64,000 bases of DNA from an uncultured Bryobacteraceae bacterium (lineage in GTDB: Bacteria; Acidobacteriota; Terriglobia; Bryobacterales; Bryobacteraceae). The notes beneath the pieces were generated by a model, which was not told the origin of the DNA, ran no database searches, and saw only the letters and a list, made by a program, of their open reading frames with translations. Shown here one piece after another: positions 5,219-47,508 of this stretch. Each line of letters opens with the position of its first letter. Position 1 is the stretch's first letter. Where the stretch lies: positions 1-64,000 of the forward strand of contig CALJAM010000024.1 in NCBI GenBank assembly GCA_938027685.1. Reading direction: 5' to 3'. A program made the translations under genes and the position numbers.

Positions 5219-7129
5219 TCAGCCTCTCGTCACCCCTTCGGGCACGATCAGCACCGGCGCGCCCAAAGCATGACGTACTGCATCAATTGTATCGCCGAAG
5301 ATCAGGTCCTGAAACCACTTATGCCCATGGCCGCCCATGACGACCAGGTCCGGCCGCACCTGCCGGGCAAAGCGCACGATCTCGCGACGAGGATCCCGCG
5401 AATGGCACAGCACAGATTCGACATCGACGCCCTGCTCCCTCAGCGCCGCGGCAATGTCGTCCAGATACTGGCGTCCGGCCTCGACTTCTGCGGTTTGCGA
5501 CAGCTCGCCGTAAATCTGGCTGGTGACGTCTTCCTCGACGTGGAGCAGATATAGCTTCGCCTTGTGCTCACGCGCCAGGCCCGCAGCGAAGCTCACGACG
5601 GCCCGGTCCATTTCGGTGTGATCCACGGGGGCCAGGATGGTCTTGAAAGCCGGCGCCCTCGGCTCAAGCTCCACCGGTAGTGGGGGCGGAGCCGGGCGGC
5701 CGATCTGTTTCAGGCGCAGAGGAAGCCAAGGCTCGAGCGTCACCCATGCCAGCGCCCCGACTAGCACCGCCGCGACCGGATAGAGCACGACCTCGACCAG
5801 CCACCGCCGATCTGCGGCTGCAGCCAGCCACTCGGCCACAGTCTGGACGACCAAGAGCACGTTCAAGCTGACGATGATGGCCGCCGCGATCCACGCCAGC
5901 CCACGCACCCATCCCGGATTAGCGAAGAGACCCATGCGCTGACGATCGCTGGTGAAGTGAATCAGCGGAATCACAGCGAAGGGAAGTTGCATGCTCAGGA
6001 CGACCTGGCTCAGGATCAGCAGCCGCAGGACGGCCTCGTCGCCTGCGATCGAAATGGTGATCGCCGCGGGCGTGATGGCGATGAGGCGCGTGATCAGGCG
6101 GCGCAGCCACGGCCGCATCCGTACGTGCAGGAAGCCCTCCATGACGATCTGTCCCGCCATGGTCCCCGTCATCGTCGAGGACTGCCCTGAAAGCAGCAAC
6201 GCCACGGCGAAAGCGATGCCGGCGAGCGTGGTGCCCAGCAGCGGAGCGAGCAGTTGGTGCGCCTGCTGGATCTCGGTCACCACGACGCCGGCTTTGAAAA
6301 ACACGGTGGCCGACAGGATCAGGATCGCGGCATTGACCAGCAAGGCTCCGTTGAGAGCCACTGCGGAGTCGATCAGGTTATAACGGCAGGCGCGTCGCTT
6401 GTCTTCGCTGGTCCGGCCGATGCGGCGCGTCTGCACCAGGGCCGAATGCAGGTAGAGGTTATGAGGCATTACCGTAGCGCCCAGCATGGCGAGGGCGACG
6501 TACAGGTTTTCCGTCGAAAGCCGGGGGACCAGCCCCGAAGCCACCTCACCAACGGCGGGCCGCGCCAGCCAGATCTCGACGAACATGCAGCCGGCGATCA
6601 CCGTGACCATGCTGAGCACGATGCCTTCGATCAACCGTATGCCGAAGCGCGAGAGACCGAGCAGCAGCAGCGTGTCTGCCGCGGTAATCAACACACCCCA
6701 CAGCAACGGAACCCCGAACAACAGATTCAGCGCGATCGCCGCTCCCAGCAGTTCCGCAAGATCGCAGGCCGCAATGGCGATCTCGCACAGAAACCAGAGC
6801 ACGTAATTGATGAACTGAGGGTACGTGTCCGCGCACGCCTGCGCCAGGTCGCGACCCGCCACGATGCCAAGCCGCGCGCTCAGCGTCTGCAGCAGGACGG
6901 CCATCGCGTTCGACATGACCAGCACCCATAGCAACTGGTAGCCGAAACGCGCACCCGCCTCCAGATCCGCCGCCCAGTTGCCGGGATCCATGTATCCCAC
7001 GCTGACCAGGTAGGCCGGGCCGGCGAAGGCGAACATGCGCCGCCAGATCGAGGGATGAGACGTGCCGACGCTGCCGTGAACCTCAGGCAGGGAAACGGGC
7101 CTGCGTGGAATCGGGCGAGTGCGGATCAT
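5219..7129 (-). CDS. Nramp-type divalent metal transporter fused to a universal stress protein domain
   Basis: A 636-aa protein. Residues about 30-440 form an Nramp/MntH metal-proton symporter with the family motifs 'DPGNWAAD' in the first membrane helix and 'MPHNLYLHS' in the sixth; these contain the metal-binding Asp, Asn and Met positions. Residues about 485-635 form a cytoplasmic UspA domain ('FKTILAPVDHTEMDRAVVSF', then 'DLVVMGGHGHKWFQDLIFG' resembling the nucleotide-binding loop). Likely Mn2+ or Fe2+ uptake across the inner membrane, with the Usp domain sensing nucleotide or stress. Its ATG overlaps the stop of the upstream YfhO-like gene in an ATGA, so the two are translationally coupled. 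The fusion is confidently visible; the ion is not. Confidence 0.92.
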   Translation of the reverse strand: MIRTRPIPRRPVSLPEVHGSVGTSHPSIWRRMFAFAGPAYLVSVGYMDPGNWAADLEAGARFGYQLLWVLVMSNAMAVLLQTLSARLGIVAGRDLAQACADTYPQFINYVLWFLCEIAIAACDLAELLGAAIALNLLFGVPLLWGVLITAADTLLLLGLSRFGIRLIEGIVLSMVTVIAGCMFVEIWLARPAVGEVASGLVPRLSTENLYVALAMLGATVMPHNLYLHSALVQTRRIGRTSEDKRRACRYNLIDSAVALNGALLVNAAILILSATVFFKAGVVVTEIQQAHQLLAPLLGTTLAGIAFAVALLLSGQSSTMTGTMAGQIVMEGFLHVRMRPWLRRLITRLIAITPAAITISIAGDEAVLRLLILSQVVLSMQLPFAVIPLIHFTSDRQRMGLFANPGWVRGLAWIAAAIIVSLNVLLVVQTVAEWLAAAADRRWLVEVVLYPVAAVLVGALAWVTLEPWLPLRLKQIGRPAPPPLPVELEPRAPAFKTILAPVDHTEMDRAVVSFAAGLAREHKAKLYLLHVEEDVTSQIYGELSQTAEVEAGRQYLDDIAAALREQGVDVESVLCHSRDPRREIVRFARQVRPDLVVMGGHGHKWFQDLIFGDTIDAVRHALGAPVLIVPEGVTRG

Positions 7130-9417
7130 GCACGCTCCTCGCTGTGCCGCACAGCCCCGGGCTCAGGGGGCCTGGAGCGGCGCCGCTCCAGCCAGAGCAA
7201 AGCGACGGCTCCCGCCATGGCCAGCAGCGTGGCCGCCCCACCCAGAATGACCGAGCGCGGGCGGTACTCCATCCGGATATGATGCAGGCCTCCCTCGACG
7301 ACGATTCCCCGCAGACACGTGTAGACCTGGTGGATTGGCGCGGGTTTCCCATCCACCCAAGCCCGCCAGCCGGGGAAAAAGTTTTCGCTGACGACGACCA
7401 TGCCCCGGCAGGCCATTCGGGCCTCGATTTCCAGCGCCTGCGTGTCGCGCCTGACCACGCGTATCACGTCCTCCCCCGGGGGGCATTCCTCCAAATCGGG
7501 CGGCTGACCCCGGATCCAGCCGGCCTTACGGAAGTCAAAGCCGGGATCCTCGAGGTAGCGGAAAGCTTCTTCGTCGGTTGCCACCGCCAGCAAACGGTGA
7601 ACGGCCCACGCTCTCGGCATGGCGCGCGGATTGAGGTAGACCTTCAGGCCGCTACCGCCTCGGAAGACCTCGCGGTAATCCGGTTGCGGAGGCTCCCCGG
7701 CGATCACGTAACCGACGCCCATCAGATCGTGGACGCGGCGCGAATGGATGCCCAAGCGAAGGAGGTTGTCCGGCAGGCTGGCCACGTACCCCGCGAAGGT
7801 GTCCAGGCCGTACCAATCGCCGAAATTGTAGGGGATGTGCTCGTCGGGCGCGGCAACGCGGGCGGGCCATGGCTGTGAACGAATAAATTCCGCTATGTCA
7901 GCGTGTTCGCCCATCTTGTTCAGGTATACGCTGCGATTTTTTTCGCGGCGGTGAGGCAAGGCGAACCCAGAGACGTTGCCCAGCTCGAGCAAGGTCACCA
8001 CCACCAAGCCTGCCATGGTAGCGCCCGGCGACAGGCGCCTGGCTGCCCCTGCGTAGATCAGCCCAGCCGTGAGCAGGGCTGCCAGCGCCGTGAGAGCGTA
8101 GCGGTCCTCCGGCACTTTTCCGACAGTCAATGAAACTACACAAGCACCCAGCAAGAGACCGGCGGCGGCCAGCAGCAGGCGGCTGGCGCGGGCGGCCGCA
8201 ACGAGGCTGTCGCTGGAAACTAACCTGTCGAATCCTAAGGCAGATAAGATCGTGAACCCAAAGTGAAATATGAAGATTGCCGACGAGGGTGTCCTAGCCT
8301 TCTCCACCAAAGGCGCCGCCGCGTACAGCATCCCGTGCCAGACGCTGTTCTGCCCCAACGAAATGATGAGGCCGCCGATGCCGACCGCGCCGAGGATTCT
8401 CACCTCGCGTCGGGCGAATCCCAGCAGCAGCCCCATCAGGGCAAGGGTCAGCACAGTGATGCCGGTGAACGGGTTCGCATGGCGGTGCACCCCGGGAATC
8501 ACGATTCCCAGCAGCGAAAGCGGGTTTAGCGAATACTCGGCGTGGACCGTGTAGGGGACCTTCTGCTTCCAGCCGACTGGATCTTCGACTCCCACCCAGC
8601 GCCTTGCGAGCCTTCCATATTCGTAGGCCGGCAGGATCTGGAGGGCGCCCGTCAGTGCCGTGAAGACAAGGAAGAGAACAGCGAGCCTGGCTGCACTCCA
8701 ATCGAACCGTCGGTGACGCAACGCGACGTAGTAGGCGCAAAGGGCGACTGCGGCCAGCGTCGTAAAGATCGGAATCTGGTGATGGCCGCTCAGCCAGGAC
8801 ATGCCGAGAAAGAGCCCGGCCAGTGCGGCGCTGGCGAGGGGTCGGACGCCCTCGAAGGAGCGGCGCAGAAAGCCGAACACCAGCGGTGCCCACACGGCGC
8901 CGTTCAGCATCTGGGGCCAATCCGTGGTTCCCACGTAACCGCCCAGCCCGAACGCCAGGCCGGCGATGGCCGATCCGCCGCGGCTGGCGCCAAGGTCTCT
9001 GGCGAACCAGTATGCGAAGGCGACCGCCATGAAATGGATGAGCACGAAGTACCAATGCAGGTAGGCCAGTCGGATCCAACCGTTGCGGAGCGGCATCAGA
9101 AAAAGGATCCAGTTCAACGGGTAAGCTGCACCCGGCTGAGCTTGGCCGATGAGCGACTGCCCGCTCCAAAGGTAAGGATCCCAGAGCGGCATGCCCCCCT
9201 TGTGCCATTCTCCGGCCTGAAACTGGAACCACGGCAGGACCTGGTTGGCCAGATCCGGGCTTTCGAGCCACGTGAACTGGTCGGTGAAGACCAGCTTCCA
9301 GTAGAAGCCCGCGGTAAGAAGCAGCAGGCCCAGCAGAATCCCCAGGGAAGCGGTGACGCGCCGCAGGCGGCCCGGTGGTGGAATTCGACCGGTCTGGTGG
9401 TTTTCGGCCGCCTGCAT
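7126..9417 (-). CDS. YfhO-like polytopic membrane protein (GT-C type)
   Basis: A 763-aa integral membrane protein. The start at 9417 places a short cytoplasmic tail before the first membrane helix ('LGILLGLLLLTAGFYWKLVF'); a longer frame reaches 9570 but would run into the divergent gene's leader and lacks a sensible N-terminus. The periplasmic loop after helix 1 carries the pattern 'WHKGGMPLWDPYLWSG', typical of YfhO-family proteins, followed by about 11 hydrophobic segments and a large soluble C-terminal domain before the last helix ('VILGGAATLLAMAGAVALLW'). YfhO proteins resemble GT-C glycosyltransferases and are linked to glycosylation of cell-wall polymers or lipids. The last codon overlaps the start of the Nramp-Usp gene. 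Confidence 0.8.
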   Translation of the reverse strand: MQAAENHQTGRIPPPGRLRRVTASLGILLGLLLLTAGFYWKLVFTDQFTWLESPDLANQVLPWFQFQAGEWHKGGMPLWDPYLWSGQSLIGQAQPGAAYPLNWILFLMPLRNGWIRLAYLHWYFVLIHFMAVAFAYWFARDLGASRGGSAIAGLAFGLGGYVGTTDWPQMLNGAVWAPLVFGFLRRSFEGVRPLASAALAGLFLGMSWLSGHHQIPIFTTLAAVALCAYYVALRHRRFDWSAARLAVLFLVFTALTGALQILPAYEYGRLARRWVGVEDPVGWKQKVPYTVHAEYSLNPLSLLGIVIPGVHRHANPFTGITVLTLALMGLLLGFARREVRILGAVGIGGLIISLGQNSVWHGMLYAAAPLVEKARTPSSAIFIFHFGFTILSALGFDRLVSSDSLVAAARASRLLLAAAGLLLGACVVSLTVGKVPEDRYALTALAALLTAGLIYAGAARRLSPGATMAGLVVVTLLELGNVSGFALPHRREKNRSVYLNKMGEHADIAEFIRSQPWPARVAAPDEHIPYNFGDWYGLDTFAGYVASLPDNLLRLGIHSRRVHDLMGVGYVIAGEPPQPDYREVFRGGSGLKVYLNPRAMPRAWAVHRLLAVATDEEAFRYLEDPGFDFRKAGWIRGQPPDLEECPPGEDVIRVVRRDTQALEIEARMACRGMVVVSENFFPGWRAWVDGKPAPIHQVYTCLRGIVVEGGLHHIRMEYRPRSVILGGAATLLAMAGAVALLWLERRRSRPPEPGAVRHSEERA

Positions 9418-9540
9418 AGAGACCCATGATAGCGGAAGCGTCTTAGAATACAGAGCGCCGGCATTTGGCAGTCCGCATGCTTCCCCAAGGATCGGAGTCT
9501 TCGCTGCGGGCCGCCCTGCAAGTCCGGGGCCGGCTCGGAA

Positions 9541-9546
9541 AGGAGG
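9541..9546 (+). promoter_or_regulatory. Strong Shine-Dalgarno deciding a GTG start
   Basis: A perfect AGGAGG lies 5 bases before the GTG at 9552. It outranks upstream in-frame TTG (9465) and ATG (9477) codons and places a clean signal peptide at the N-terminus of the FecR/DUF6600 protein. Confidence 0.85.
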
Positions 9547-9551
9547 CGACC

Positions 9552-12302
9552 GTGCGGGGCAAATGGGCATTGTTGTTGGCAGTGAGCCTTATCGGGATCG
9601 GGCTACCGCAGGCTCGGGGTGAAGAGGAAGACGGACCGGGCCGAGGGGTGGCGCGTCTGAGCGTCGTCCAGGGCGATGTCTCGGTGCGTCGGGGCGATTC
9701 CGGCGATTGGGTCGCGGGCGCTGTGAACGCGCCCCTAGTCGTCCGGGACCGGGTCATGACCGGTGCGGCTTCGCGCGCCGAAATCCAGTTCGACTGGGCC
9801 AACATGGTGCGGCTCGCTTCGGATAGCGAGATTCGGCTGGCCGAACTCGAGTACCGCCGCTACCAGGTGCAGCTCGCACGTGGGACTGCGATGTTACGTG
9901 TGCTGCGGGACACGGATGCCGAAATCGAGCTTAACACGCCCGAGGTCTCGGTCCGACCGCTGCGCAAAGGCGCCTTCCGCGTGACGGTGCGCGGTGATGA
10001 GAGCGAGATCACGGTGCGGTCGGGCGAGGCCGAAATTTACACGCCGACCGGATCGGAGCGGCTGCGCCCCGGTCGCACGATGCTGCTGCGCGCGGGGGGT
10101 GCCAGCCCTGAATTTCAAACCGTCGCCGCCATCCCGCGGGACCGTTTCGATGATTGGAACGAGAGCCGCGATCGTTACCTCGAGCGGACCCGCAGCTATC
10201 GATACGTGAGCCGTGACATCTATGGGGCCGACGATCTGGACTATTACGGCCGGTGGGTTTGGGTTCCGCCCTACGGTTGGGTGTGGACGCCTTGGGGTGT
10301 GGCCGCGTGGTGGGCGCCGTATCGTTACGGCCGCTGGGTGTGGGTTGATTGGTACGGCTGGACATGGCTGAGCTACGATCCTTGGGGCTGGGCGCCCTTC
10401 CATTACGGCCGCTGGTTCTGGCATCCGCCTTACGGCTGGTGCTGGTATCCGGGACCGCGGTATCACCGCCACTACTGGAGGCCCGCGCTGGTCGCCTTCT
10501 TCGGCTTCCATGTGGGTGGGGTGCACGTGGGTTTCGGCTTCGGTCGCATCGGATGGATCCCGCTGGCGCCTTACGAGCCGTATTACCCGTGGTACGGCCA
10601 CCGTTACTACTACGGCTACCGGCACCCGACTTACATCGACAACAGCGTGCGGATCGTCAATAACGTTCACATCGTGAACGTCTACCGCAACGCCCGCGTC
10701 ACGAACGCCATCAGCGGCGTGGATGCCGACGGTTTCGTGCGCGGCGGCCGCGTGGAAACTTTGCGTGTGAGCGATGCGGAGTGGCAGCGCGTGCGCCTTG
10801 TGCAAGGCCCGGTGCCGGTGGTGCCCGCGCCCGAGAGCGTGCGCTTCGCGGATCGGCCCGTGCGTGCAGCGGGCGGCTTGGTCCGGACCGAGCCGGAGCG
10901 GTTTTTCAGCCGGCGTCCCGCTCCCGCGGTGGAGCGCCTCTCCTTCGATGAGCAGCGCCGCGGCATGGAGCGACTGGTACAGCGCGCCTTCGGCGCTCCG
11001 GAGGGAGGCGTGGTCACGTCGATCCGGGCCGAGGAGGGGGTCCGAGGCGGCGATCCCGTACGTACCGTTGCCCCGCAGCCTGGGGCGAGCCTGCCCTCGG
11101 CGGGCACGACGCCCTTGCCGCGGAGGGCTGATGAAGTGCGGGTCTGGCGCGTCGAAACCGGCGCGGCAACTGTTGGGCAGATCGAGGGCCGCGGGTGGCG
11201 CCGCCTGGATGAGCCGACTTCTGCAACAACGCCGGCCATTGGAGGAGGCGCTCGGCCCGGCGGGAACGAAATGCGTGGCGGTTGGCGTACGATTGGTGAG
11301 CCCCTTCGTACCGAGGAGAGCAATATGCCGCGCATCCAGGGCGGCGAACGAGGCGGGTGGCAGCGGTTCGGAGTGGGCGGAGGCGCCGACAGCCGCGACG
11401 CGGTCGATGCCGGCGGGATCAGACGTACGCTCGAGGAGCGCGGCGGTTGGCGTACGATCGGTGAGCCGGTCCGGACCGATCAGGGCAACCTGCCGCGTAT
11501 CGAGGGCGGCGAGCGGGGCCGGTGGCAGCGGTTCGGCGCGGTCGCTCCCGCCGAGAGCCGGGAGCCCGTGGGTGCAGGGGGGATGAGGCGCGCGACGGAG
11601 GAACGCGGCGGCTGGCGTCGCTTCGGGGAGCCGATTCGCACTGACGAGAGCAAGATGCCGCGCATCCAGGGCGGCGAACGGGGCGGATGGCAGCGGTTCG
11701 ATGCGGTCGCCCCCGTCGAGAGCCGGGAGGCCGTGGATGCAGGGGGGATGAGGCGCGCGACGGAGGAACGCGGCGGCTGGCGTCGCTTCGGGGAGCCGCT
11801 CAATCGTGACCGCTCCCCGGTGCGGTCCGATGCCGAGATCGGTCCTGCCGCTGGCCGCTTGGATCGGGAGCTGGGAGGCTTCCGTAGCGAGGGCGAGAAC
11901 GCCCCCATCCGCCGCCAGGCGGATGAAGGTTGGCGACGATTCAGCGCGCCGCGCGTCGAGCGAGCCCCTGAGTTCAGTACGCCTGAGCCTTCGGCGCCTC
12001 GGTGGAGCGGACCCTCTTGGCGTTCCGAGCCCCGGCAGGCGGAGCCGCGCCGCGGAGAGCCGCGGCGCAGCGAGCCGATCTTCATCAACCCGCCGATCGT
12101 GCGCGAGCGCTCGGCTCCGCGCTGGGACGCCGGCCCTCGCTGGGGCGGTGGTGAGATCCGCGGCGCGGATGTTCCGCGCGGGGGCGAGATTCGCGGCGGC
12201 CCGATTGGTGGTGAGTTGCGCGGGGGTGAAATTCGTGGCGGCGGCATGACGCGCTCGGCCGAAGGTCGGGTGGGCGGAGGGCGCTCGGGCCGTCCCAGGT
12301 AG
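9552..12302 (+). CDS. Secreted FecR-domain/DUF6600 protein with tandem 55-aa repeats
   Basis: About 916 aa from the GTG at 9552. A signal peptide ('MRGKWALLLAVSLIGIGLPQARG') is followed by a FecR-like domain (about 30-175; 'LSVVQGDVSVRRGDSGDW' and 'AEIQFDWANMVRLASDSEIR'). Next comes a tryptophan/tyrosine-rich DUF6600 region with repeated 'YGRWVWVPPYGWVWTPWG'-like units (about 220-330), a probable surface or envelope-associated module. The C-terminal third is low-complexity, rich in Arg, Gly and Glu, and contains three 55-aa tandem repeats plus a partial fourth. It ends in Gly/Arg-rich 'GGEIRGG' units. The role is unknown; in other bacteria FecR domains bind or signal in the periplasm. A strong terminator follows at 12400. 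Confidence 0.88.
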   Translation: MRGKWALLLAVSLIGIGLPQARGEEEDGPGRGVARLSVVQGDVSVRRGDSGDWVAGAVNAPLVVRDRVMTGAASRAEIQFDWANMVRLASDSEIRLAELEYRRYQVQLARGTAMLRVLRDTDAEIELNTPEVSVRPLRKGAFRVTVRGDESEITVRSGEAEIYTPTGSERLRPGRTMLLRAGGASPEFQTVAAIPRDRFDDWNESRDRYLERTRSYRYVSRDIYGADDLDYYGRWVWVPPYGWVWTPWGVAAWWAPYRYGRWVWVDWYGWTWLSYDPWGWAPFHYGRWFWHPPYGWCWYPGPRYHRHYWRPALVAFFGFHVGGVHVGFGFGRIGWIPLAPYEPYYPWYGHRYYYGYRHPTYIDNSVRIVNNVHIVNVYRNARVTNAISGVDADGFVRGGRVETLRVSDAEWQRVRLVQGPVPVVPAPESVRFADRPVRAAGGLVRTEPERFFSRRPAPAVERLSFDEQRRGMERLVQRAFGAPEGGVVTSIRAEEGVRGGDPVRTVAPQPGASLPSAGTTPLPRRADEVRVWRVETGAATVGQIEGRGWRRLDEPTSATTPAIGGGARPGGNEMRGGWRTIGEPLRTEESNMPRIQGGERGGWQRFGVGGGADSRDAVDAGGIRRTLEERGGWRTIGEPVRTDQGNLPRIEGGERGRWQRFGAVAPAESREPVGAGGMRRATEERGGWRRFGEPIRTDESKMPRIQGGERGGWQRFDAVAPVESREAVDAGGMRRATEERGGWRRFGEPLNRDRSPVRSDAEIGPAAGRLDRELGGFRSEGENAPIRRQADEGWRRFSAPRVERAPEFSTPEPSAPRWSGPSWRSEPRQAEPRRGEPRRSEPIFINPPIVRERSAPRWDAGPRWGGGEIRGADVPRGGEIRGGPIGGELRGGEIRGGGMTRSAEGRVGGGRSGRPR
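11277..11800 (+). repeat. 165-bp in-frame tandem repeat, about 3.2 copies
   Basis: Units begin at 11277, 11442, 11607 and 11772, exactly 165 bp (55 codons) apart; the last is partial. Each unit encodes 'GGWR(T/R)(I/F)GEP' followed by an acidic patch, 'PRI(Q/E)GGERG(G/R)WQRF' and a linker ending 'RGGW'. The third and fourth starts are almost identical at DNA level, which suggests recent duplication or gene conversion and makes copy number likely to vary between strains. Confidence 0.92.
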
Positions 12303-12399
12303 AGCGTCAAGTCGGCGTCCCCGTCCTTGTGGCCGAAGCGGGTGTCCTGGAGATAGCAGCACAGCCGCACCTGGCAGCCCTTCCCTCGGCCCTATCGGA

Positions 12400-12445
12400 G
12401 GGCCCGCATGCGGTAGGATGGCATGCGGGCCCTGTTTTCTTGTTT
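12400..12445 (+). terminator. Rho-independent terminator after the FecR/DUF6600 gene
   Basis: A perfect 12-bp stem (gggcccgcatgc at 12400-12411, gcatgcgggccc at 12421-12432) with a 9-base loop is followed directly by the T-rich run tgttttcttgttt. It separates the FecR gene from the transhydrogenase operon. This is the clearest intrinsic terminator in the window. Confidence 0.88.
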
Positions 12446-12485
12446 CCTAGCACGGGTTCGAGCATCTCGAATGGTGAGGGTGTGA

Positions 12486-13646
12486 ATGATCGTCGGCGTA
12501 CCCAAAGAAACGTTTCCGGGTGAGAGACGCGTGGCCTTGACGCCCGCGGTGCTGGACACGCTCAAGCGTTCGGGCATCGAGGTCTTGCTAGAACATGGTG
12601 CAGGCGAACAGGCCGGCTTTCCGGACGTAGCTTACGAAGCGAAAGGTGCGCGCCTCGCCAACCGCGACGACGTCTTTGCGCGAGCCGATCTGGTGGTGCA
12701 GGTACGGGCCCTGACGGCTGCCCTGCCGCACAGCCTCGACGACCTGCCGCGTTTGCGCAAGAGCCAGATCATTGTGGGCGTCTTCGATGCCTTGTGGGCG
12801 GCAGACGAGATCGAACGGTTGGCCGCGACCGGGGTGACCGCCTTCGCCCTCGACCTGATGCCGCGCATCAGCCGTGCGCAAGCCATGGACGTGCTTTCTT
12901 CGATGGCGACCGTGGCCGGCTACAAGGCCGTTGTGCTCGCTGCGGAACGGCTGCCCAAGATGTTCCCGATGCTGATGACCGCGGCGGGGACCATCCCGCC
13001 CGTGCGCGTCTTCGTCATCGGCGCGGGTGTGGCCGGCTTGCAGGCGATTGCCACTGCGCGGAGGCTCGGAGCGGTGGTGGAGGCGTACGACGTGCGTCCC
13101 GCGGTCAGGGAGCAGGTTCAAAGCCTGGGCGCCAAGTTTGTCGAGCTGCCCCTGGAGGCGGTGGGCGAGGACGCGAGCGGCTACGCCCGCGAGCAGGATG
13201 AGGAGTTTCAGCGTCGGCAGCGGGAGCTGATGGCGCGCGTTGTGGCGGCGAGCGACGTGGTGATTACCACCGCGGCGGTGCCCGGTCGCAGGGCGCCGCT
13301 GCTCATCACGCGTGAAATGGCGGCCGCCATGCACCCGGGATCGGTGATTGTGGACCTGGCGGCGGAACGCGGAGGCAACTGCGAGCTGACGCGCCCGGGT
13401 GAAGAAGTGGTCTATGGAGGCGTGACGATTCTGGGTCCCACGAATCTGCCGGCCACGGTTCCCTATGATGCCAGTCAGATGTACGCTCGGAACCTGGCCG
13501 CCTTCCTCACGCATTTGATCAAGGATGGACAGCTTCGTCTGAATCCCGACGATCCCATCACGAGCGAGACGATGCTGGTGCGCGAGGGCGTGATCGTCCA
13601 TCCTCGCCTGCGCGAGGCGCTGACAGCGGCCCGCCGACAGGATTGA
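12486..13646 (+). CDS. pntAA: NAD(P) transhydrogenase subunit alpha, part 1
   Basis: A 386-aa protein matching the soluble NAD(H)-binding domain I of proton-translocating transhydrogenase. The N-terminus 'MIVGVPKETFPGERRVALTP' is diagnostic of the alanine dehydrogenase/PntA family, and the Rossmann loop is 'VFVIGAGVAGLQAIATARRL'. In this split organisation domain I, the first membrane part and PntB are separate polypeptides, as in Rhodospirillum rubrum. The enzyme uses the proton gradient to make NADPH from NADH at the inner membrane. First gene of a three-gene operon; the stop is 14 bases before the next start. Confidence 0.96.
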   Translation: MIVGVPKETFPGERRVALTPAVLDTLKRSGIEVLLEHGAGEQAGFPDVAYEAKGARLANRDDVFARADLVVQVRALTAALPHSLDDLPRLRKSQIIVGVFDALWAADEIERLAATGVTAFALDLMPRISRAQAMDVLSSMATVAGYKAVVLAAERLPKMFPMLMTAAGTIPPVRVFVIGAGVAGLQAIATARRLGAVVEAYDVRPAVREQVQSLGAKFVELPLEAVGEDASGYAREQDEEFQRRQRELMARVVAASDVVITTAAVPGRRAPLLITREMAAAMHPGSVIVDLAAERGGNCELTRPGEEVVYGGVTILGPTNLPATVPYDASQMYARNLAAFLTHLIKDGQLRLNPDDPITSETMLVREGVIVHPRLREALTAARRQD

Positions 13647-25180: not shown

Positions 25181-25352
25181 CTCGTCCTGCAACGCTCGCT
25201 GCCCGGTTCGAGCGGACGGATTTCGGCGTTGGAGTCCGCCGTCAACCGCCCCGCAGGGGGAAGATGACTCCTACTCAGTACGAAGCGGCGGCGGTGCGCG
25301 CTCGCCCGCGCGCCGCCACCGCCGAAGGACGCCAGCTGTGTGAGCGCTACTC

Positions 25353-27401
25353 ATGGAGGCACATCCTTCTCGGCCGCTCGGCGAAGGCCAACAACGTCAC
25401 CTGCTGGCAAATCTCCAATACGCTGACAAGCTGCTTGCTGAAATCGAGGCCATCCTCTCCGCTTCGCAATCGCGCAACGCCTTCCCCAAGTATCGGATCG
25501 ACATCACGCCTGCGCAGGCGCGCGTCATAAACGAGTACGTCGCTCGTCTGCGTGCACAGATGCTCCGGGCGCTGCGCGCCCTATCGATCGAGCCGCCGGA
25601 ACCCGGGCTCGGCGCCCTGCACTCGATCCGCGTCACTTTGGGCTTCGTGGACATCGCACTCGAGGAATGCCGCCCGAAGCGAATGAAAGGCTATGGCGCC
25701 CTGCCGCCGGAGCGCTGGGCGGAGCTCGACGGCATGGTGGACGAACTCCAGAGTCTGGTGGAGCAGCTCGACGCCTATCTCGCGCAAGGTTCTGCCGCGG
25801 ACCTGGCCGCCAGACTGGAGGCATTGGAGCAGGCAGGGGTGGACGTAGCCTTGGTGCGCACGTTGGAGCGCATCGTCAACCGCTGGAGCCTCGTCGAGTT
25901 CAGACCCGCGCTCGCCGCGATACTGGACGGTTTGGAGAATCGCAGTTTCGAAATCGCCGTTTTCGGACGCGTGAGTTCGGGCAAATCCTCGTTGCTGAAC
26001 TACGTACTCGACACCCAGGTCCTGCCCGTCGGCGTCACCCCCATCACGGCCGTTCCTACGCGCATTCGTTACGGATCCGAACCGCGAGGGCGCGTCTGGT
26101 TTGCTGACGGTCGTGCGCATGAGTTCGCGCCTGAGAGGCTCGATGAGTTCGTCAGCGAAGAACATAATCCAGGCAACCGCAAGAACGTCGCCCGCCTGAT
26201 CGTGGAGCTTCCGTCGCCGCGGCTCAGCGAAGGCGTGGTTTTCGTCGACACGCCGGGCTTGGGCTCGCTGGCCACGGCGGGCGCGGCAGAGACTCGGGCT
26301 TATCTGCCGCGCTGCGACCTGGCGGTGGTGCTGGTGGACGCGGCTTCCACGCTCACCGAAGACGAATTGGCCCTCCTCCAGGCGCTGCATGAAGCGGCGG
26401 TGCCCATCCAGGTCCTGCTCAGTAAGTCGGATCTGGTGAGTGAGGCGGAGCGCCGACGCCTGCTGACTTACGTCGCGGAGCAAATTCGGAGTGAGCTGGA
26501 ACTCGATGTCGCTGTCCATCCCGTGAGCGTGAGGCCCGGGCACAGCCACTTGCTGGAAGAGTGGTTCGAGCGCGAAATCCTTCCGCTATGCGCGCGCGCG
26601 CACGAACTGCACGAGCGATCGCTGGCACGCAAGACGGCCATGCTGGCGGAGAGCCTGCGAGCGGCGCTCGAAGTCCGGCTGGAGCATGCAGCGCGCACGG
26701 GCGCCGCCGGCGACGCTCTCAAGCAGGTGGAGACCGCGCTGCGTGTGCTGAGCGGCCGCTTTGAGGAGGCGCGCACGGCGTGTTTCCGTCTCACGGACGG
26801 CGTCCGAGGGCTTCGGGCGGAAGTGCTGCGTTCGTCAGCGACCGCGCTGCTAGGCGCCGATCAGCGCGACGGGCGAGAAGTCGTGGTGCGGGTCCTCCAG
26901 GAGGTGACCGCCGGGCGCGCGCGTGCCGTCGCGGCGCTGCTGGAGCAGCTTGCCCGCGATGCCGTCCAAGGACTGCGAGAAGCCGGGCAGGCGCTCGAGG
27001 TTCCGTGCAACATTCCGGGCGAAGCGGATCTGCTCGGGGCGCTGAGGGAGCTCCCGCGGTTGGACGCCGGCGCTATCACGAACGTCGACCGGCCGGGACG
27101 GTGGGTTAAGCTGCTGGGCAGCGGCCTTGCCAGGCGGATCACCGAGCTCCGTCTCGGACGCGAGATCGGACCTCAGATCGCTGCCGCGCTGGCCGGTTAC
27201 GGCCGACTGCTCGAGGCGTGGGTACGGCGCAGCCTGGCGGAGCTTGAATCCCGCTTCGAATCCTGCGCGGGAGTCTTCCGTGCTCACTTCGAGCGGCTGG
27301 AGTCAGGAGGCTCGACGGGGCCCGGAGAGCAGAGCGAACTGATGCGCGACCTCGCCGAGCTGAGCTCGCGGCTGGAGCCTCTCCTCCGCCGCCGGCGGTA
27401 G
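25353..27401 (+). CDS. Bacterial dynamin-like GTPase (copy 1)
   Basis: A 682-aa protein. About 200 residues of mostly helical sequence precede a dynamin-family GTPase domain: G1 'GRVSSGKSS' (205-213), G2 threonine in 'GVTPITAVPT', G3 'DTPG' (299-302) and G4 'LSKSD' (356-360). The rest is a long helical stalk region to the C-terminus, without an obvious membrane helix. The layout fits bacterial dynamin-like proteins, which remodel or bind membranes. The N-terminal extension before the G domain is long for the family. A second, shorter dynamin-like gene lies 2.4 kb downstream on the other strand (29794-31554). The start codon is supported only by position; the ribosome site is weak. Confidence 0.88.
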   Translation: MEAHPSRPLGEGQQRHLLANLQYADKLLAEIEAILSASQSRNAFPKYRIDITPAQARVINEYVARLRAQMLRALRALSIEPPEPGLGALHSIRVTLGFVDIALEECRPKRMKGYGALPPERWAELDGMVDELQSLVEQLDAYLAQGSAADLAARLEALEQAGVDVALVRTLERIVNRWSLVEFRPALAAILDGLENRSFEIAVFGRVSSGKSSLLNYVLDTQVLPVGVTPITAVPTRIRYGSEPRGRVWFADGRAHEFAPERLDEFVSEEHNPGNRKNVARLIVELPSPRLSEGVVFVDTPGLGSLATAGAAETRAYLPRCDLAVVLVDAASTLTEDELALLQALHEAAVPIQVLLSKSDLVSEAERRRLLTYVAEQIRSELELDVAVHPVSVRPGHSHLLEEWFEREILPLCARAHELHERSLARKTAMLAESLRAALEVRLEHAARTGAAGDALKQVETALRVLSGRFEEARTACFRLTDGVRGLRAEVLRSSATALLGADQRDGREVVVRVLQEVTAGRARAVAALLEQLARDAVQGLREAGQALEVPCNIPGEADLLGALRELPRLDAGAITNVDRPGRWVKLLGSGLARRITELRLGREIGPQIAAALAGYGRLLEAWVRRSLAELESRFESCAGVFRAHFERLESGGSTGPGEQSELMRDLAELSSRLEPLLRRRR

Positions 27402-29793: not shown

Positions 29794-31554
29794 TCAAGCT
29801 GCGGGGGACGGTTCGGGCATGTTCTCGCGGATGGTCGCACTGAGCGTGTCCACCTGTTCGATGGCGCGCGTGAGCGATTCCGCCAACTCACGGGCGCGCA
29901 GGGAGCCCTCCCGGTGACGTTGCAGGGCGGCCTCCATGGCGCGTCGGATCCCGCTCACGGTTTCATCCAGCTTGGATTCCAGCGAGCGCTCGAAGTCCGC
30001 GAGACTCTTTTGCAGCCGGCGCTTGAAATCGTAGGCCACGCGCGTCGCGTTGCGGTCCAACTCTTCGGGAACCGCCTTGAGCACGCGGCGCAGCATGTAG
30101 CGTCGAAACAGCGGACCGGGCAGCAATAAGGGGGCGTTGCCGAGGCCCCAGTCCAGCAGCGAGTCCGTGTAGTAGCCGGTGGACTCCAGCCATGCCAGTT
30201 CGTCCGCCAGCTCGAGGGGCGCGATTTCGATGCCGAACAGCTCGCCCGCCGTGCGGCGCACGCCTTCGGCCAGTTGGTTGATGGACTGCTGGAAGCGGCC
30301 CGCCACGGCGCGGAATTCCTCGAACGCCTGGCGCTCAAACTGGCGCCTCCATTGCTCGAAAAGCTCATGAATCATGCGCGCGATGAAGCGGTCCATCTCC
30401 GCAGCGAGCTTGCGGCGGGGCAGGGAGGAGGAGGCCTCGAAGTGGTGTCGCGCTGCGGCCTGCACGGCGGGGATCTGAGACTCGGCGAACTCTCGAGCCG
30501 CACTTTCAAAGGAGGAGGAAAGCCTCGCCAGCCCGGCCCGCAGCAAAACTCTGTTGTCCTCGCGCTGCTGCTGGGCCCACTGAAGCTGGCGATCGAACTC
30601 CGCGATTTTCTCCCGGAGCTCTTCGACAGGCATGCGCGCAGCCTTGATCTCGAGGTTGAGCAGCATGCGCAGCTCAGCCGCCAACTCCAGCAGACGCCGG
30701 CCGGCGGCGAAGGAGAACACACGATTCTTTTCCTCCCGCAGGAACTGTGCGAGGCGACGTTCCACGTGGGGGAAGCCGCTGCGCTCCAGCAGGAGAGCAT
30801 CGCCGCTCTGCTTGGCCTGAAGGGCCTTGTGTGCGGAAACGGGAAAGATTTGGCTGTCGTCGATCGGCAGACCGGGCGGCAACGATCGCCGTGCGAATTC
30901 CAGAACCTCCGCCAGATGATCGGCAGCCACGGTATCCGCCTTGTTCATCACCAGGAAGATGCGCCCCACCTGTTTGCCCAGATCCCGCAGGAACTCGATT
31001 TCGGCGGAAGTCAGCGGGGGCTCCGGCGACGTAATGAAGATGGCTGCGTCCATACGCGGCAGGAAGTCATACGTCACCTGCGTATTGTGCTCGTAGACGC
31101 TGGCCACGCCGGGAGTATCGATCAGCGTCACGCCTCCTGCCAGACACGGGCTGGGATGGAAGACCTCCACGTAGGCGACTTGTTTGGCGTTGCGCGGGTT
31201 GCCGTTTTCAGTGACGAACTCCGGCAGACGGTCGAGCGGGATTTCGACCGTCCGTCCGTCATGGAAGTGCACCGAGCCGCGCGGGCGAGCGCCGTGGCGC
31301 AGCACAGTGACGACGGAGGTTAGCGGCAATACGGCTACGGGGAGTACGGGCTCGCCCAGCAGCGCGTTCAGGAATGTAGTCTTGCCGCGCTTGAACTGGC
31401 CGACGACGACCAGATGGAAACGGTTTTCTTCCAACCGCTGTGCGAGTTCAGCGGATGCGGATGCGATAGCGTCCTGCTGGTGCTCAGCGCCAAGGGATTC
31501 GAGCTTGCGGGCCGCGCCCGCAAGCTCCGCGGCGGTGTCGGCGCAGGTAACCAT
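29794..31554 (-). CDS. Bacterial dynamin-like GTPase (copy 2)
   Basis: A 586-aa protein. The GTPase domain begins close to the N-terminus: G1 'GQFKRGKTT' (52-60), G2 threonine near 79, G3 'DTPG' (146-149) and G4 'NKAD' (204-207). A long helical region follows, with a hydrophobic loop-like segment near 500 ('LGNAPLLLPGPLFRRYML') that could be the membrane-inserting paddle. A coiled-coil C-terminus ends the protein. It resembles the classical bacterial dynamin-like layout more than copy 1 does. It heads an operon with the MFS gene and is divergent from the efflux operon. AGGAGA precedes the ATG. Confidence 0.9.
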   Translation of the reverse strand: MVTCADTAAELAGAARKLESLGAEHQQDAIASASAELAQRLEENRFHLVVVGQFKRGKTTFLNALLGEPVLPVAVLPLTSVVTVLRHGARPRGSVHFHDGRTVEIPLDRLPEFVTENGNPRNAKQVAYVEVFHPSPCLAGGVTLIDTPGVASVYEHNTQVTYDFLPRMDAAIFITSPEPPLTSAEIEFLRDLGKQVGRIFLVMNKADTVAADHLAEVLEFARRSLPPGLPIDDSQIFPVSAHKALQAKQSGDALLLERSGFPHVERRLAQFLREEKNRVFSFAAGRRLLELAAELRMLLNLEIKAARMPVEELREKIAEFDRQLQWAQQQREDNRVLLRAGLARLSSSFESAAREFAESQIPAVQAAARHHFEASSSLPRRKLAAEMDRFIARMIHELFEQWRRQFERQAFEEFRAVAGRFQQSINQLAEGVRRTAGELFGIEIAPLELADELAWLESTGYYTDSLLDWGLGNAPLLLPGPLFRRYMLRRVLKAVPEELDRNATRVAYDFKRRLQKSLADFERSLESKLDETVSGIRRAMEAALQRHREGSLRARELAESLTRAIEQVDTLSATIRENMPEPSPAA

Positions 31555-31781
31555 ATAGAGACTCTCCTAACACCTCGAGGTCTTTCTTTTCAGGAATCAC
31601 TGGGAGGGCTGCCGTATGAGGTCTCCTACAGCGATTCCCCCACCGTAGGAGTTATCGGCCGCTGGACGCGGCGGTTAATGGCGAACTCCACCGCCAATGC
31701 TATTCTACCTTGTACGCCGCACCCTCGACAACCCGTCGAACTCGGCGTCCACGCTCCTGAGAACCAAACGAGTGTACCTTG
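31555..31781. other. Divergent intergenic region with an inverted repeat
   Basis: About 230 bases between the dynamin-like gene (minus) and the efflux operon (plus). It contains a 7-bp inverted repeat, ctcctac (31623-31629) and gtaggag (31645-31651), separated by 15 bases, which could be an operator. No regulator gene is adjacent. Convincing -35/-10 pairs were not found. No small gene was seen. Confidence 0.35.
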
Positions 31782-45209: not shown

Positions 45210-45303
45210 CAACGACTGCCAGACCCCACTTCAGCAGTCGCTCGGCGGGTGTCGATTCCGCCGCCACGTCCCGCTTGATGTGCTCGTCCAGGCTCTCGAA
45301 CAT
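45154..45303 (-). CDS. 49-aa single-span membrane protein
   Basis: A short gene that is easily missed. From the ATG at 45303, an exceptionally good ribosome site (AGGAGG, ending about 7 bases before the ATG) leads into a 49-aa protein. An acidic/basic head 'MFESLDEHIKRDVAAESTPA' is followed by 'ERLLKWGLAVVVTALILGGL', one clear membrane helix, and a short tail 'YAAIRLLEG'. Codon third positions are GC-rich, as in real genes here. I recall similar small hypotheticals in acidobacterial genomes; the function is unknown. It converges on and overlaps the lysozyme-like gene. Confidence 0.8.
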   Translation of the reverse strand: MFESLDEHIKRDVAAESTPAERLLKWGLAVVVTALILGGLYAAIRLLEG

Positions 45304-46082
45304 GGCCTCACCTCCTGACGCCTGAGCGTCGCATGAGACCGGTATGAGGACGTTTTTATTGTAGTACTGAACGCCGGGAAACGCACGCGGAATTTGCAGG
45401 CGGACCCTCGGCGGCGACTAAAGGCCCGGCGGCCTTGGGGCCCAGCCCGTCCGCGACCAACGCACCTCCCGGCGTCGGGAGCCGGGCTTGTGCGTCTGCG
45501 GCTCACTGTGGCGCCGGAGTGCGGGAGCCCCGCGACCGGGAGGCCAACCCGAGCTCTCACCGTGCGAGACTCGCCGCAAGATCGGGCTCGCGTTCCGGTA
45601 GGCCACCCGCCAGCATGGCGCCGGTGGGCCGTCACCCGGAAGGAGCCGCAGTCGTGCCGGCGGGTTCTCAGTCCGGCATGGACCGCAGCTTGCGCCTCAG
45701 TTGCGCCAGTCGGACGCAACGTCAAGCCTTCACCGCCGCCCGCTCGCACGAAGCCGGCCATCCGACGTGGTACGCTGCTGCCGCGCGAAGGAGACTTCCC
45801 CCGAACGTCTTGCGTCGCCCGAAGCCTCCGCCCCGGGCGAACTGCGCCTCATACGCAGGGGTTCAGGCGCCGTCTCCCTCCTGACGTTTGCAAGTTTCGG
45901 ATGTTTGCCTCAATCGTCGGGGTTTAAGGTTAGCGGCGGCCCGGGAGGAGTCGCGCTCGGTGGGTTAGAGCTAGCGCGTCATCGCTGGCAGGCCGTCGGT
46001 GCAACGGGCAGATCCCACGGCAATCATGAGCCCCCGAAACGGCTACGGGACGAGCTCGCGGGAACCCTGATCAGCGTGCGGA
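45304..46082. other. Gene-poor stretch
   Basis: Nearly 0.8 kb in which open frames on both strands give Arg/Pro/Ser-rich translations with no recognisable domain, signal peptide or ribosome site. It lies upstream of the broken cysteine-rich gene and may contain its decayed upstream region. Confidence 0.5.
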
Positions 46083-46417
46083 TGTGCACAAGCGAGAATG
46101 GCACTAGCAGGCGTGCCGGCGTTAGCCTTTTTATCGCCATGGGTCATGCCCAGCAGTGATGTTACCAGTGCGCCTACGATTGCCCCAACACGGCGTACGC
46201 GCCGCAGTATGATTGGCGGTGGTGTTCATGTCCTAGCAGCGCTTGGTGCGTCACGCTTCCCGATTCCTGCCAGCGATGCTACATGGGCACTGTCATTCGG
46301 TGCGATGACCCGCTAAACGCCTGCCAGACTTACTGCCTGGGAGGCTACAGCCGGTTCTGCGGCTGCCAACACCGTCAGGCTAAAAGAAGCGACGAAGACC
46401 GCGGGGGGGCAACATGA
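46083..46417 (+). pseudogene. Cysteine-rich small protein, apparently interrupted by a stop
   Basis: Translation from 46160 to the TGA at 46415-46417 gives 85 residues with 13 cysteines in the first 70, in pairs and singles ('CYQCAYDCP', 'WRWCSCPSSAWC', 'DSCQRCYMG', 'ACQTYCLGG', 'RFCGC'). Codon third positions are GC-rich and the stop overlaps the ATG of the following secreted propeller gene (ATGA), so it looks like a real coupled gene. But no start codon exists after the TGA at 46157-46159. The same frame continues upstream to an ATG at 46083. A TGG-to-TGA change, or a frameshift from the overlapping frame that starts at 46098, would explain it. I do not recognise the family. Confidence 0.45.
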
Positions 46418-47508
46418 GGCGTTTGATCGTCCTTACGCCGTGCCTGCTTTTGGGGGAGCGCGCTGCTGTTTTCGACGGCGAAGGCCGAAGTCGGGAGCAC
46501 GAAGCGCCTGCGCTTCACGATCGAATCCATTCATTCATTGAGCGCCCCCGGAGATCAACTTCGCGGCGCTCAGGTATTGTGGGTCGGAAGACTTTGTGCT
46601 GCTTTCGACCGACCGTTGGGGAGTACATAGAGTCTTCCTCGGGCGCCGGAAGCCGCTTTCATTCCGTCTCCACTCCCTCCCGGAGGCCGCGCACGCCGCC
46701 ATGCACATTCGGGACGATTTGGCATGCGATGGCGAGGGGAGGATCCGCCTTGCTGCCTACTGGCAAGAATGGTCGGACGTTTCCGCCTTGCGAAGCGGCT
46801 TTCTCGTCTTCGACCATCACGGGCGACACCTGGCGACGGTTCCGCTGGAAGGAATCGCGATGGTGGACCGCATAGCCGTGGGCGACGACGGATCTTTATA
46901 CGCGCTGGCGACACCTTCGGGCCCTTCTCGCAAGGAAAGGATTGCTTTTTCGTTCACAAGTTCAGCGCGCGCGGCGAACGGCTCGCCTCGTTTTCGCCAT
47001 GCTCTGAAAGCACGGCATGGGCGAAGGAGGCAGCGGGAGCGCGGGAGGGGATAACCCGCGGTCGTCTCTGGTGGCAGGACGGCTGGCTGTACCACGTCCT
47101 TCATGCGACTCGCGTGGTCAGGATTTTCAAGGCCGACGGCACGCCGGTGCGCACCGTGTCCTTCGTTGCCCCGGACAGCTCTCAGCTGTTCGCGTCCGCG
47201 GGTCTCAAGGCCGACCCGCGCTTGAACCGAGTTTGGCGCATCGCGCACTTGCCCGACGGCAGGTTCCTGATTGAGTGGCTGCACGTGGAAAGTCCCGGGC
47301 TGGGCACGCAGCGAGCCACCACGTTCGTGGCCTTGCATGATGAGCAGGGGCGACCGCTTTGCGTCGGCAGCCACCCGCCCGTGCGACCCGCCATCCCGGT
47401 TGCCGTCGACGCGGGGGCCGCGTGTTGTTTCTGCACCTGAAACGATCGGGGTCCGGAGGGCCCGAGCTGCAGCAGCTGCTGCTGCTGCCCAGGCCATTCG
47501 TGGAATAA
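46414..47508 (+). pseudogene. Secreted six-bladed beta-propeller-like protein, multiply frameshifted
   Basis: Joined across three frames, this region encodes about 365 aa: a signal peptide ('MRRLIVLTPCLLLG', then 'SALLFSTAKA') followed by repeated blade-like units ('EDFVLLSTDRWGVHRVF', 'LACDGEGRIRLAAYWQEW', 'IAVGDDGSLYALATPSG', 'WLYHVLHATRVVRIFKADG', 'RVWRIAHLPDGRFLIEW'). Shifts are seen at the G5 run near 46452-46456, near 46586, near 46915 and at the G5 run near 47412-47416. After the last, 'GRVLFLHLKRSGSGG' runs to a TAA at 47508. Such propellers usually bind ligands or partners outside the cytoplasm. Coupled to the cysteine-rich gene before it. Not functional as read. Confidence 0.7.

Follow-up and report, generated by a model that had tools for sequence, protein, structure and literature searches.

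The closest described counterparts of the protein considered here are exported six-bladed propellers of Bacteroides, represented by a DUF4221 protein (structure 3s9j) and by BF0058 (4raa). Like the present protein they are exported. Some exported propellers of Bacteroides presumably adjoin small NVEALA peptides. The combination of a small secreted peptide with an exported propeller is already known from this genus; the acidobacterial pairs described below carry no family name in Pfam or NCBIfam. The literature searched contained nothing about NVEALA peptides or about pairs of cysteine-rich and propeller genes in Acidobacteriota. The same fold class also comprises the NHL-repeat propellers, such as TRIM2/3, Brat and the bacterial sensor PknD.

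The DNA analysed here is a stretch of 64,000 nucleotides from an uncultured Bryobacteraceae bacterium (contig CALJAM010000024.1), called the window in the following.

The locus in the window and its lesions

The original prediction described an 85-codon frame with 13 cysteines whose stop codon overlaps the start codon of a propeller gene, and both features are indeed present. The locus is composed of the following elements:

46082..46417 (+): putative secreted cysteine-rich protein gene, interrupted (pseudogene); about 111 codons plus stop, with profile matches in four further genomes
46157..46159 (+): TGA that breaks the cysteine-rich frame where the signal peptide ends
46160..46414 (+): open cysteine-rich domain, 85 codons, 13 cysteines
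46414..46417 (+): ATGA, the stop of the cysteine-rich gene overlapping the start of the propeller gene
46414..47508 (+): gene for a putative secreted six-bladed propeller, with about four frameshifts; TAA stop at 47506-47508
46545..46920 (+): propeller segment in one frame, 33% identity to the homologue of genome G180 over 126 aa
46937..47440 (+): propeller segment read in a different frame, with a profile E of 1.2e-41 and 38% identity to the G180 homologue

Upstream, the cysteine-rich frame runs on through the single in-frame TGA to an ATG, which lies at 46082 and not at 46083 as originally given. The N-terminus encoded from there is signal-peptide-like (MCTSENGTSRRAGVSLFIAMGHAQQ), and the frame ends with the TGA at 46415-46417, overlapping the ATG at 46414-46416. 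A density of 13 cysteines per 85 codons is unique to 46160-46414 among all frames of the window, the runner-up having 11 cysteines. The codon-position GC bias is lower in this frame than in the adjacent genes. Rfam gave no match at the locus of the two genes. Upstream, about 870 bases (45210-46080) separate the cysteine-rich gene from an ORF of 177 aa and hold no convincing gene; the sole long ORF within them (45394-45927) has a flat codon-position GC profile.

Both genes carry lesions, as stated in the original prediction. In addition to the in-frame TGA of the cysteine-rich gene, the propeller gene changes frame at approximately 46450-46460, 46543-46552, 46915-46940 and 47410-47428. The large ORFs flanking the locus (1260, 1042 and 945 aa) are unbroken and show a strong codon-position bias. 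Because they are intact on both sides, the damage is local, as in a pseudogenised pair, and an assembly error is thought unlikely. Short runs of G or C lie at three of the four frame changes in the propeller gene, so that a residual chance of sequence error has to be allowed for. The locus is best explained as a two-gene operon of which this copy has recently decayed.

Elsewhere in the window two fluoride riboswitches (Rfam RF01734) were found at 25216-25280 (+) and 31639-31704 (-). Each precedes, at a short distance, a gene encoding a dynamin-family GTPase domain (25353-27401 (+) and 29794-31554 (-), respectively). To our knowledge such genes are an unusual target of fluoride riboswitches.

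Distribution of the pair and its changing partners

A profile of the cysteine-rich domain, searched against the 257 genomes of the order, gave four strong matches beyond the window (E 5e-28 to 6e-30), all of them within the window's own family, the Bryobacteraceae (phylum Acidobacteriota). In three of these genomes (G026, G027 and G167) the cysteine-rich gene is followed on the same strand by an open propeller gene. In the fourth, G002, only about 340 bases of contig remain downstream and the propeller is cut, but its N-terminus is present, beginning a few bases past the stop of the cysteine-rich gene. G167 (JAIMAR010000056) and G002 (JAPWUP010000335) are both metagenome-assembled genomes of Bryobacteraceae. 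The search for neighbours in the same order that had been proposed was therefore successful: the genes form a true pair, as claimed, and three relatives with both genes open agree with the view that the window holds a decayed copy of a system intact elsewhere. Across the five cysteine-rich proteins (the window's and the four others) 11 cysteines are invariant and a twelfth is kept in four of the five; a C-x-C-P motif and Tyr motifs are common to all. The junctions are tight, with the ATGA overlap in the window and mostly short gaps elsewhere. An ATGA overlap also occurs in a pair on contig 16 of genome G656 (locus L084), where the stop ends at 1474 and the propeller ATG is at 1471.

The statement that the cysteine-rich part belongs to no recognised family was borne out, and neither gene matched a Pfam or NCBIfam model over the cut-off. 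When 396 genomes sampled evenly across the phylum were searched, no further member of the window's cysteine family was found. Within the 257 genomes of the order, seven were matched by a profile made from two propeller proteins. It had been put forward as a case against the pair that propeller homologues might always occur without the cysteine-rich gene. This is not so, but three Bryobacteraceae propellers (G180, G173 and G115) do lack an upstream cysteine-rich ORF. Either the propeller can stand alone or its partner has been lost there, and these three count against the partnership proposed below.

A second profile (A4), made from the propeller only and without use of the cysteine-rich gene, was run over the phylum sample and reached three other acidobacterial families, represented by G269, G382 and G634. 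In each of them a secreted-like cysteine-rich ORF lies directly upstream of at least one propeller, and none of these ORFs has a detectable likeness to the cysteine-rich protein of the window. G634 possesses two such pairs in tandem, and extension around G634 and G382 yielded further loci. At locus L094 of G634 (8427-13036) three propeller matches are arrayed, two of which have their own, different cysteine-rich partner directly upstream. Two more secreted-like cysteine-rich ORFs are found on the minus strand of locus L095 of G656 (5899-6264 and 11173-11457), one just downstream of a propeller and the other with no adjoining propeller. A search of plasmids with one relative propeller gave no match.

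For counting, a secreted-like cysteine-rich ORF was defined by a length of 60-260 aa, at least 7 cysteines and a hydrophobic N-terminus. Fourteen regions with a total of 240,519 bases contained 17 propellers and 17 ORFs passing this rule, and 13 of these 17 ORFs immediately preceded a propeller on their own strand. Under uniform placement this has a P of ~5e-24, a value to be read in the light that the loci are partly non-independent (close relatives) and that the regions were chosen for holding a propeller. The partner in G269 fails the rule solely through its N-terminus. With a similar rule a cysteine-rich neighbour was present at 16 of 31 propeller loci (18 if G027 and G269 are added by eye) as against none of 34 genes of the window (Fisher 4e-8, close relatives being counted). 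The partners fall into about ten sequence groups with differing cysteine spacing, and there was no BLAST match between groups at E 0.01, one borderline pair excepted. Within groups the partners have diverged more than their propellers: identity in groups C and D is 66-68% among propellers but 37-60% among the cysteine-rich proteins. The recurrence of the pairing suggests that the propeller partners a secreted protein that changes quickly.

Fold of the propeller and possible roles of the pair

The AlphaFold model of the propeller (the G180 homologue plus five relatives) has a pLDDT of 78.2 and a pTM of 0.80. Among the matches listed by Foldseek and VIA-align almost all are propellers, and the fold is of the six-bladed NHL type. 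NHL domains occupy the top ranks in Foldseek. In VIA-align the first two places are taken by the exported Bacteroides propellers 3s9j (Z 20.5, 299 residues) and 4raa (Z 18.1), followed by NHL domains, PAL and LRP6 modules with Z of 15-17. The NHL repeat model (PF01436) had no match over the gathering cut-off in the window's family and a sub-threshold one in a single distant relative, and the Pfam model of DUF4221 had none in the Bryobacteraceae proteins (E<=1) or in other relatives (E<=0.1). Gly, Leu and Arg, besides the start Met, occupy the positions that eight or all nine of the propellers compared have in common; these positions include no cluster of His, Asp and Glu as a candidate catalytic site, a pattern that suits a scaffold. 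Two cysteines, one before an 'LIH'-like motif and one in 'FSxCP', are both present or both absent in each of six aligned relatives, as would be the case for a disulfide. Propellers to which this observation refers are:

L009, 379-1476 (-)
L024, 1824-2891 (+)
L036, 1438-2553 (-)

The model of the cysteine-rich protein (pLDDT 40) was unusable, so that no fold is assigned, and the profile of the domain found no relative among solved structures. Its best solved match, a viral prM protein (E 0.045), was weak and driven by cysteines and was rejected. A relationship to methylamine dehydrogenase, in which a cysteine-rich light chain likewise goes with a propeller, was dismissed, as the Trp positions are unconserved and neither Pfam nor PDB sequences gave a match.

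The pair is conserved, its gene order is maintained, it is spread over several families of the phylum and its small member diverges. The N-termini encoded by both genes resemble export signals and the cysteine patterns appear to be of the disulfide type. The product of the first gene would be small and exported and contain about six disulfides; that of the second gene, which is translationally coupled to the first, would be an exported six-bladed propeller resembling NHL and DUF4221 proteins. As a conserved scaffold the propeller may hold, display, stabilise or receive the cysteine-rich protein outside the cytoplasm; the pair may act as a signal and its receptor, in adhesion, or in bacterial competition. 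On the basis of gene linkage and fold we lean, with modest confidence, towards co-exported partners, a conserved non-catalytic propeller binding a fast-diverging disulfide-rich protein.

Propellers of PAL, CylK and Vgb are among the fold matches, and a precursor gene adjoining that of its enzyme is the usual layout of peptide-modifying clusters. The propeller might for these reasons be an enzyme that matures or cleaves a cysteine-rich precursor, in the manner of a PAL-type lyase, CylK or streptogramin lyase, the pair making a peptide product. We consider this unlikely, since the conserved sites are mainly structural glycines and hydrophobic residues with no conserved His/Asp/Glu cluster, the unit has no transporter or protease, and the partner is built of a Sec-like signal plus a large disulfide-rich domain, not of a leader and a core. 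Another proposal sees the cysteine-rich protein as a secreted toxin, antibacterial or other, with the propeller serving as its immunity protein or its carrier. The faster divergence of the partner, the different partner types inside one genome, the tandem pairs in G634 and the decayed copy in the window would all suit it. It is nevertheless improbable, because in toxin/immunity systems it is seldom the immunity gene that is the better conserved of the two; moreover, there was no match to a toxin family and no linked secretion apparatus, and the anti-phage defence models of PADLOC did not match any of the five proteins scanned.

Two further explanations concern the cysteine-rich frame itself. 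If the TGA at 46157 encoded selenocysteine the gene would be intact, and the frame is in fact otherwise open up to the coupled stop; one match to the tRNA-Sec model was also obtained, barely over the cut-off. However, ARAGORN calls this match tRNA-Ser(TGA), the same search was positive in 14 of 14 control genomes, the two nearest relatives (G002 and G167) have Trp at the place of the TGA and the others have sense codons, and the coupled propeller is frameshifted anyway, which makes selenocysteine very unlikely. Scarcely credible is a chance adjacency in which the frame is non-coding GC-rich sequence. While the codon-position GC bias weaker than that of neighbouring genes would agree with it, it is refuted by the five homologues with their 11 invariant cysteines and the same position in each; the enrichment in the larger set (P ~5e-24, read as above) also opposes it.

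More broadly, the Acidobacteriota may possess secreted pairs of a so far unrecognised, ligand-receptor-like class, in which a hypervariable disulfide-rich protein and a conserved extracytoplasmic propeller would serve cell-cell recognition, and related pairs may exist in Bacteroidota; we offer this wider proposal tentatively. The pair recurs in several families of Acidobacteriota, its propeller conserved and its cysteine-rich member of about ten kinds, although neither gene has a family in Pfam or NCBIfam. This provides a simple, testable rule, by which small secreted disulfide-rich proteins can be sought directly upstream of such propellers in a poorly understood phylum. It also makes the question of what these propellers bind directly testable.

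Comparison with known systems

The Bacteroides propellers 3s9j and 4raa are closest in overall fold, which is shared over 281-299 residues (rmsd 3.9) with Z values exceeding those of NHL domains (about 17). They differ in phylum, in a sequence identity of 8-11% and in the lack of a Pfam match on the acidobacterial side. The likeness to peptide and binding-protein pairs of other phyla that the original prediction had drawn has support at the level of structure. In gene arrangement, the acidobacterial loci (the window and its relatives) resemble the NVEALA pairs of Bacteroides in that a gene for a small secreted protein stands beside one for a six-bladed propeller. The cysteine-rich proteins scanned matched no NVEALA-type family in either Pfam or NCBIfam, and a possible link between the two sets is suggested by the fold. 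TIGR04149 was considered as well and is an unrelated precursor family.

NHL-repeat propellers share the fold class but are distinguished by the NHL Pfam match, which is not reached over the cut-off here, and their eukaryotic members are intracellular or RNA-binding. LRP6, the modules of which are among the fold matches, is an animal protein of YWTD/EGF architecture encoded by a gene separate from that of its ligand, and no descent is claimed. By analogy only, its complex with Dickkopf (Dkk1; 3s8v) offers a parallel for the proposed partnership, since Dkk1 is a secreted cysteine-rich protein that binds a six-bladed propeller outside the cell.
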